This document shows positions 33,122 to 38,168 of a stretch of DNA of 64,000 bases, one piece after another. How positions within the stretch are numbered: position 1 is the stretch's first letter; each line of letters starts with the position of its first letter. Both the position numbers and the translations under genes were made by a program. Origin of the DNA: Symmetrospora coprosmae (taxonomy: Eukaryota > Basidiomycota > Cystobasidiomycetes > Symmetrosporaceae); contig VUYT01000018.1 of NCBI GenBank assembly GCA_008802785.1, forward strand, positions 248,001-312,000, in the 5' to 3' direction. The notes under the pieces are model-generated. The model did no database searches. It saw only the letters and a list, made by a program, of their open reading frames with translations, and was not told the origin of the DNA.

Positions 33122-34754
33122 TCACATCAACCCTCTGCGAAAGGAGACAAAGCTACATCGTTAGCCTATCTCCCGGTGCATTCCAGCAGGACCGAAGACC
33201 CACGAGTATGCCAGATTCTTGCGGAGAATTGTGTCGTTGACAGAGATGAGCACTATCCGGACCTGCTTGGTGTCGGTTGCGCAGGTAAAGTGCTGATAGA
33301 GCTCATTTGGCCGTCTGTACAGCGTCCTGAATTTCTTTGCCATGTATTGTGCCCTGCGATATCGACACGGATACAATGTCAGCAGGCTGTCTCGTTGCCT
33401 ACTTTAGGATGTACAGTCGAGGTCAGACTCACGCAGGCTCGTATTCGTTCTCTCCCGTGTAGTCCGGGCAGTAGTCGCGCAGCTGGGTGCCTCCCCGCAG
33501 CTTCTGCTGGAACAGGTCGATCTTGTTGAGGAAGAGAATGATGGAGCTGTTTGCAAAGTACCGCGAATTTGCCACGCTCTCGAACAGCGTGACAGATTCT
33601 TGCAGTCGGTTGACGCTCTCGTCCTCGTACAGACTCTGGTCAAACTCCTGGATCGCGACGAGGAAGAGCAGAACCGTGACGTCCTCTGAAAGTAGGCGAC
33701 GGCACGGAGTGGTCAGTCTGCGAAGACCGAGACATGCGGGAGGTCTCTGAATCACTCACCAAAGCAGTTCAACCACTTGCGACGCTCTGTCCGCTGTCCT
33801 CCTACATCAAGCAGGCGATACCGCAGCTCGCCGACCTTCAGAATTGTCTCGCTGATACCCGTCGTCTTGACTCGACACCGCAGGATATCGTCGTCTGACG
33901 GGACAAAGTTGGCCGCTATTGTCCGGTCCACGTTCTCGAAGAAGTACTGTGAGGGTAGAGATAGTGTGCGCAGGATTCAGGAGGAATGTTCGATAGTGCA
34001 CCAAGCGAGCCGGAGATATGGAAATGCGTACCTCTGCAGAATCGTTCAGCTGGAACTCGTTCCGCCGGGCAATGGCATCCTTGACGCCTGCATCCGCATA
34101 CAAAGCTTTCACCGATCTCGCCGTCTCTTGCGGAACAGGCCACTGCAGGGGGTGGATATACGGCAGCATGAGCTGCGGCCAATTTTGACGCTTTCCGAGA
34201 GGACGGTCCCACCTCTGGGTACGAGCCAATATCGGCGATGATCTGAGCCTCGTTGGCGCTCTCGGGCTCGCTGAACGTGATGCCCAGCATCTCCATGGCG
34301 TCGAGGACGACGCTGAGCGACTGAAATGTGTTGGCGAGGATGACCTCGCGGTAGCCTAGGCGCTCCTCGTCGCCCATGGGCTTGTCGTACATCAGGCGGA
34401 ACTGCTTGAGGACGGTCGACTCTGTGCGCACGTGCATTGGCGAGCGAGCGAGCGAGCGCAGTCAGCATCAGCATTAAGGCGGACTCGCGAAGCTCCAGTC
34501 AGGTACAGCAGAGCACTCACTGCCGGACTCTGTGAGGGGCAGACACGAAGTGAGAGAGGGCAAATGCACAGATCAGCTCCTGAGCGGTCCGTGCATCATT
34601 CATGTAGGCCGTCAGACCCACCTCCGGCTCCCAGGAATAGCAGCTTCACATCCTGCCTGCTGTCGCGCTCCGCCTGCTTGAGCTGCTTCTCTATCGCCTC
34701 GTGCCTCTGCTTTGCGGCATTGTCCTCGATGGGGGCGCTCGCTCCGCAGCCCAT
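33122..34754 (-). CDS. Heterotrimeric G-protein alpha subunit
   Basis: Membrane-attached GTPase that couples receptors to cAMP or MAPK signalling. Eight exons, phases exact: 34622-34754, 34521-34529 (9 nt), 34213-34421, 34032-34142, 33760-33946, 33433-33685, 33204-33326, 33122-33134; 345 residues against a usual ~354. N-terminus MGCGAS gives Gly2 (myristoylation) and Cys3 (palmitoylation). G motifs: GAGESGKS (built across three exons), RCRVKTTGI, DVGGQRTERRKW, FLNKIDLF and TCATDT. The last 13-nt exon gives the C-terminus ...KNLAYSGLM, the usual receptor-contact tail; reading through the intron instead would add an atypical GPAGMHREIG end. Class within the fungal G-alpha groups was not assigned. 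Confidence 0.94.
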
Positions 34755-37286: not shown

Positions 37287-38168
37287 ATGCGCCGACACGT
37301 CGGCCTCTCGTCGCTCTCGCACCAGACGACGGCCAATGCAGCTTACTCGTCGCTGTCGAGCACGCTCTCCGAGCACCAGCTCTCGATGCTCCAGGCGCAG
37401 CTCGCAACGTTCCAGGGAGCGCTGCGCACATTCGCAACCAAGCACCGCGCCAAGATCCTGTCGGACCCAGTGTTCCGGACGCACTTCGCCGACATGTGCA
37501 ACCAGCTCGGGGTGGACCCCCTCGGCTCTGGCGGGCGCAAGGGCGTCTGGGACTACCTCGGTGTCGGGGAGTGGACGTACGCGCTTGCCGTGCAGGTCGT
37601 CGACGTGTGCCTGTCAAGCCGTGAGCGGAACGGTGGACTCTTGGAGCTGGACGAGGTCGTCAGGGGCGTCACCCGGCTCCGTAGTGGTCCTGCTACGGCG
37701 GCAGGCAGTGGCAGCAACAAGGCAGCTGTTATAGCCAGGAGCTCCGCATCAGCCACCTCATCATCAGCATCCTCATCGGTCACTGCTCAGGATGTAGTCC
37801 GCGCCATTAACGCGCTCCAGCCGCTGGGCTGCGGCTACTCGATTATCGACCTCGGACACGGCAAGAAGATGGTGCGAAGCGTCGCCGCAGAGTTCGACAC
37901 GGACTCGCTAACTCTGCTCGAGGCAGCGTCCGACAGCGGTCTGGGTCATATCACCATCTCGAGCCTACGAAGCTTCACTGCGGGCCGCTCCACTGTGGGC
38001 AGTCCGGCTGCGGCCGGCGGGTGGACTGTCCAGCGAGCCGCGAATGCGCTCGAGAGGGCGCTACTCAACGAGGGACTCGTGTGGATGGACGATCAGGAAG
38101 CGGGAGAGGTCCAGTACTGGATGCCATCCCTATTTGATTTTCAGGAGACTCTCGAAACGGCCAGCTAG
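37287..38168 (+). CDS. snf8: ESCRT-II subunit SNF8/VPS22 (EAP30)
   Basis: Core of ESCRT-II, which acts at endosomes in sorting ubiquitinated cargo into multivesicular bodies. Intronless, 293 residues, close to the usual ~230-260. The N-terminus MRRHVGLSSLSHQ, the helix FATKHRAKILSDPVFRTHFADM and the block MCNQLGVDPLGSG are family landmarks. So are WDYLGVGEWTYALAVQVVDVCL, RNGGLLELDEV, the two winged-helix segments (VRAINALQPLGCGYSIIDLG and RAANALERALLNEGLVWMDD) and the closing VQYWMPSLF. A Ser/Ala-rich insert of about 35 residues (around 37690-37790) separates the helical hairpin from the first winged helix. The ATG at 37287 begins the conserved N-terminus directly. Confidence 0.95.
   Translation: MRRHVGLSSLSHQTTANAAYSSLSSTLSEHQLSMLQAQLATFQGALRTFATKHRAKILSDPVFRTHFADMCNQLGVDPLGSGGRKGVWDYLGVGEWTYALAVQVVDVCLSSRERNGGLLELDEVVRGVTRLRSGPATAAGSGSNKAAVIARSSASATSSSASSSVTAQDVVRAINALQPLGCGYSIIDLGHGKKMVRSVAAEFDTDSLTLLEAASDSGLGHITISSLRSFTAGRSTVGSPAAAGGWTVQRAANALERALLNEGLVWMDDQEAGEVQYWMPSLFDFQETLETAS

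Follow-up and report, generated by a model that had tools for sequence, protein, structure and literature searches.

In the window, by which we mean the whole 64,000-nucleotide stretch of DNA that was analyzed, a G-alpha gene carries a 9-nt exon within the codons of its P-loop, and this exon is very probably a constitutively spliced microexon left by intron crowding. On this reading, two ordinary short introns lie 9 nt apart within the P-loop codons, each of them most likely recognized across itself (intron definition); with splicing defined by introns, the 9-nt exon would be joined by default, and a normal nucleotide-binding G-alpha is the predicted product. The actual splicing, the default inclusion of the exon, and the order in which the introns were gained are what we infer from the sequence. 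The divisibility of 9 nt by three is most likely incidental, and a transcript that skipped the exon would be noise, encoding a protein without the Ser-Gly-Lys of the P-loop.

Structure and identity of the G-alpha gene

The gene was modeled from consensus borders and a profile alignment as eight exons of 133, 9, 209, 111, 187, 253, 150, and 13 nt. An uninterrupted reading frame runs through all eight exons from the ATG to the stop codon, and the spliced product is 354 amino acids long, with the N terminus MGCGAS. The features of the gene are as follows.

33122 to 34754, minus strand: complete G-alpha gene, with the ATG at 34754 and the stop at 33122
34622 to 34754, minus strand: exon 1, 133 nt, from the ATG, ending GCC GGA G
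34530 to 34621, minus strand: intron 1, 92 nt, GTGGGT..CACAG, phase 1, within the P-loop Glu codon
34521 to 34529, minus strand: exon 2, the microexon AGTCCGGCA, 9 nt, carrying the rest of Glu45, Ser46, Gly47, and the first base of Lys48
34422 to 34520, minus strand: intron 2, 99 nt, GTGAGT..CACAG, phase 1, within the P-loop Lys codon
34213 to 34421, minus strand: exon 3, 209 nt, first letters AG TCG ACC
34143 to 34212, minus strand: intron 3, 70 nt, the length preferred by the profile alignment
34032 to 34142, minus strand: exon 4, 111 nt
33760 to 33946, minus strand: exon 5, 187 nt, with switch I RVKTTG and switch II DVGGQ
33433 to 33685, minus strand: exon 6, 253 nt, with the NKID motif
33204 to 33353, minus strand: exon 7, 150 nt, with the TCATD motif
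33122 to 33134, minus strand: exon 8, 13 nt including the stop codon, C terminus ..SGLM

The microexon is preceded by ..CCTCACAG and followed by GTGAGT, and exon 3 opens AGTCGACC directly after ..GCGCACAG. A 9-nt microexon had been placed at 34521 to 34529 by the initial annotation, and its coordinates, letters, and borders were found to be as claimed, on the minus strand. An intron 3 of 40 nt, present in the first hand model and in the first alignment, gave way to the 70-nt form favored by the profile alignment. An open frame at 37287 to 38168 on the plus strand, past the gene on its 5' side, is one that we take to resemble the ESCRT-II subunit SNF8/VPS22. As an internal exon of no more than 27 nt with spliceosomal borders (AG before it and GTGAGT after it), exon 2 falls within the class of microexons, which PMC8378409 defines as exons of 27 nt or shorter.

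The PF00503 profile matches the gene exon by exon. Of the four exons matched on contig 9, two exceed the curated cut-off of 48.8 bits, at 111 and 84.2 bits, and the other two fall short, at 37.5 and 28.8 bits. A profile made from an alignment of the window protein and three paralogs matched PDB G-alpha with an E value of 5.3e-146, the match to G(o)/G(i) alpha running the full length; within the best 60 of 264 sequences matched, the nearest solved structures are G(o)/G(i) alpha, e.g., PDB 6oik chain A. Given the 9-nt exon, the G1 motif GxGESGK[ST] is present in the spliced protein as GAGESGKST, and RVKTTG (switch I), DVGGQ (switch II), NKID, and TCATD are intact in the spliced model. The motifs expected of a G-alpha, namely, the switch I Arg/Thr, DVGGQ, NKxD, and TCA, are present in the window protein. 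With its G1, NKID, TCATD, and two switch motifs, the protein agrees with the G-alpha family (PF00503), and the gene differs from the family only in exon layout, with the P-loop codons split across three exons. Viral contigs scanned with the G-alpha alignment returned 34 pattern matches, none of which encodes a relative as judged by tblastn.

The genome searched amounts to 20 Mb in 77 contigs, and its compact genes and style of introns suggest a fungus, probably a basidiomycete. Eight further loci were fetched from it and aligned with a splice-aware script, and for six of them (L009, L010, L011, L012, L014, and L015) the G-alpha models were good enough for the counts. The two left out of the counts are L016, which looks Arf/Arl-like by its motifs, and L013 (contig 30), a very divergent G-alpha-like locus whose P-loop reads GSADSGKS and whose switch II is degenerate (DVSGSRGRR). 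L014 (contig 31) and L015 (contig 49) are a close pair of divergent G-alpha genes, and the L014 model has one in-frame stop at a position where L015 has Arg. Contigs 16, 31, and 49 each carry a paralog that is situated within approximately 7 kb of a contig end.

The extreme C terminus (GLM or GLI plus the stop) is carried on a last coding exon of its own, 12 to 13 nt long, in the window gene (33122 to 33203, minus strand, together with the preceding intron), L010, and L012. If intron 7 of the window gene were retained, the message would read ..AYSWVFGPAGMHREIG and then a stop. An isoform of this kind seems likelier than skipping in the P-loop because retained introns are the most frequent type of event in the two fungi compared, Schizophyllum commune and Ustilago maydis (PMC5034255, PMC2219887).

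Splice junctions at the P-loop

With the microexon included the protein reads GAGESGKSTV, and with the microexon skipped it reads GAGESTV, the frame being kept and S46, G47, and K48 being removed. Translation of the two forms thus bears out the earlier statement that skipping is in frame and costs the protein its Ser-Gly-Lys. The same annotation held that GAGESGKSTV arises only with the microexon, and this stood when the alternative junctions were enumerated: none of the 922 one-intron pairs yields GxxxxGK[ST] before a stop, and the single two-intron combination that yields the motif, among 97 with canonical outer borders, is the 9-nt exon model. When the 200-nt stretch was shuffled with its dinucleotides preserved, a short exon restoring the motif was obtained in 1 of 20,000 shuffles.

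These counts bear on an alternative reading with a faulty gene model or a dead gene, in which the P-loop is made by another junction or never made. Every other one- or two-intron route enumerated having failed to give the motif, this reading is further opposed by the remaining G-alpha motifs that were checked, all of them intact, and by the open frame across the eight exons. The intact RVKTTG, DVGGQ, NKID, and TCATD make sense only if the P-loop is normally made, and we consider a faulty model or a dead gene to be exceedingly improbable.

Splice-site weight matrices were built from 44 paralog introns that had come from an aligner rewarding consensus borders, so the matrices lean to consensus. 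The donors of intron 1 and intron 2 scored 10.27 and 9.99, respectively, and are the two best among the gene's seven, in keeping with the initial description of the GTGGGT and GTGAGT borders as good. The corresponding acceptors scored 8.17 (second of seven) and 6.66 (fourth of seven). An unused acceptor-like site at 34579, inside intron 1, reached 7.13, which is more than the score of the acceptor used for intron 2, and the last letters of the microexon scored 6.57 when treated as an acceptor. Both values weigh against constitutive inclusion.

The frame-neutral length of the microexon had led to the proposal that splicing switches the gene between an active and a dead G-alpha. In such a regulated switch, exon 2 would be skipped under some conditions to give an in-frame G-alpha that lacks the P-loop Ser-Gly-Lys and is dead for nucleotide binding, and the skipped form may act as a dominant negative by trapping G-beta-gamma or a receptor in a complex that is inactive. 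It speaks for this proposal that skipping keeps the frame, whereas retention of either intron 1 or intron 2 leads to an early stop. However, the microexon is flanked by strong donors on both sides, and a deletion within the P-loop of a GTPase would probably misfold the protein. Skipping of the microexon would also require an intron of 200 nt. Among 45 paralog introns (a count that includes a doubtful 39-nt intron at the start of L015, which was excluded from the 44 on which the matrices are based), the median length is 70 nt and the maximum is 173 nt; 200 nt is not far above this maximum, and skipping is thus physically possible.

Skipping could also take place as noise, with a low and unregulated share of transcripts lacking the microexon and encoding a dead, unstable, and useless protein; some tuning of the G-alpha dose by this means is conceivable. 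No new splice sites would be needed, as the donor of exon 1 would only have to be joined to the acceptor of exon 3 across the 200 nt, and exon skipping has been reported in Schizophyllum (PMC5034255) and Ustilago (PMC2219887) and is among the isoform types of Cryptococcus (PMC3990503). As the principal account of the locus, noise skipping is unlikely, and it is compatible with a constitutively spliced microexon, the difference between the two being one of emphasis only.

Intron positions in the paralogs

A second P-loop microexon was identified in L010 (contig 16), in which an exon ending ..GGA G is followed by AAAGCGGGAAAAG (13 nt) and then by T ACG ATC; here, none of 476 one-intron pairs yields the motif, and among 64 two-intron combinations this one alone does. 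The 5' boundary of this exon is identical to that of the window microexon, as the upstream P-loop intron shares the position and phase of window intron 1, and the downstream P-loop intron lies 4 nt further on than window intron 2 and is in phase 2. Skipping of the 13 nt shifts the frame. Frame-neutral skipping is therefore not kept between these two related genes, which are paralogs and not orthologs, and this counts against a regulated switch. The borders of the L010 microexon are weaker, with donors at the 27th and 9th percentiles and acceptors at the 50th and 36th, and the argument from strong sites thus does not extend to it. Of the remaining modeled paralogs, L011 carries one P-loop intron, located three codons upstream in the first Gly, and the other four have no intron within the P-loop.

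When introns were placed at random, overlapping exons of 13 nt or less arose in two genes in 7.7% of trials, and an identical 5' boundary arose in 0.7%, the comparison being post hoc. The latter figure favors common descent of intron 1, which, judging from the shared boundary, is probably older than the split between the window gene and L010. Intron 2 would then have been gained, or have slid by 4 nt, separately in the window gene and in L010. In a protein tree of eight rows, support was obtained for the L014/L015 pair only, and the window gene and L010 may or may not be sisters. The P-loop microexon is old or recurrent in the G-alpha family, and its divisibility by three has not been kept.

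Several paralog introns do not coincide but lie 1 to 4 nt apart, as seen at alignment columns 45 to 49, 166, 228 to 229, and 371 to 372 among the window gene and L009 to L015; at column 166, for example, the intron is in phase 0 in the window gene versus phase 2 in five paralogs. Near coincidence of this kind suggests intron sliding or repeated gain.

To set the microexon against a base rate, which here is that of one gene family, the seven G-alpha genes were taken together; they contain 52 introns and 45 internal coding exons, of which 4 do not exceed 27 nt. Random placement of the 52 introns gave a mean of 4.1 internal exons of 13 nt or less, compared with 2 observed, and a mean of 8.2 of 27 nt or less, compared with 4 observed. 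As the random means exceed the observed numbers, tiny exons are no commoner than intron crowding predicts.

An introner-like origin was considered for the flanking introns and rejected, as the 200-nt stretch matches only itself genome-wide in a search that disregards simple repeats and very common words. The likeness of introns 1 and 2 does not exceed that of shuffled sequences (score of 10 against a shuffle mean of 10.6). When the two L010 introns are added, the five further pairings do not stand out from shuffles either. The lowest shuffle frequency of the six pairs was that of intron 1 and L010 intron 3, whose score of 13 was reached in 36 of 200 shuffles.

Comparison with splicing and microexons in other fungi

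Coding exon skipping is reported to make up 1% of coding events in Schizophyllum commune, in which a looser junction count gives 1,527 coding skips against 7,851 coding alternative splice sites (PMC5034255), and in Ustilago maydis coding exon skipping accounts for 12 of 193 events (PMC2219887). Its status as a minority event in these two species argues against a regulated switch in the window gene. Several reports can be cited in favor of one: a 20-nt microexon in Xlr2 of Trichoderma virens is present or absent with glucose (PMC11121469), microexons tend to be in frame, as described in a nervous-system context (PMC13149111), and the microexons of P450 genes were deemed likely candidates for alternative splicing (PMC1184071). 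Against it, even for Xlr2 the authors found no read that connects exon 1 to exon 3 (PMC11121469), and microexon residues are given as typically lying in disordered regions (PMC13149111), unlike a P-loop. In the window gene, the frame-neutral length of the microexon is all that was found to speak for a switch between active and dead G-alpha; several results lean against such a switch, among them the strong donors, the 13-nt counterpart in L010, and the 200-nt intron needed, and we regard it as very unlikely.

Gene predictors readily overlook exons this small, as the authors of the Xlr2 study say of their own gene (PMC11121469). An annotation that passed over the window microexon would show a G-alpha lacking the P-loop lysine, which might be mistaken for a pseudogene or for an isoform that is inactive. 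The two paralogs with P-loop microexons and a common 5' boundary also offer a natural case of intron gain or sliding in an invariant motif. Were skipping regulated after all, it would amount to direct splicing control of G-protein signaling in a fungus. Among the open-access matches listed, no title or abstract opening named a fungal G-alpha or P-loop microexon, which is weak evidence of absence.

The closest parallels come from two fungal systems. In the P450 genes of Phanerochaete chrysosporium, microexons encode 2 to 10 residues, the shortest exon is 6 bp, and 41 genes have exons of 29 bp or less; the authors consider that these microexons likely promote alternative splicing (PMC1184071). 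Like the window exon, they are tiny and lie amid short introns in a fungal gene family, whereas the window exon belongs to another gene family, falls in a nucleotide-binding loop, and is found at the same place in two paralogs. The abstract on Xlr2 describes functional microexons as previously undescribed in filamentous fungi (PMC11121469). The Xlr2 microexon resembles that of the window gene in that each contributes residues to a key domain of a fungal protein; however, it is 20 nt long and not frame neutral, unlike the 9-nt exon described here, and its dependence on conditions was derived from RNA-seq and overexpression.
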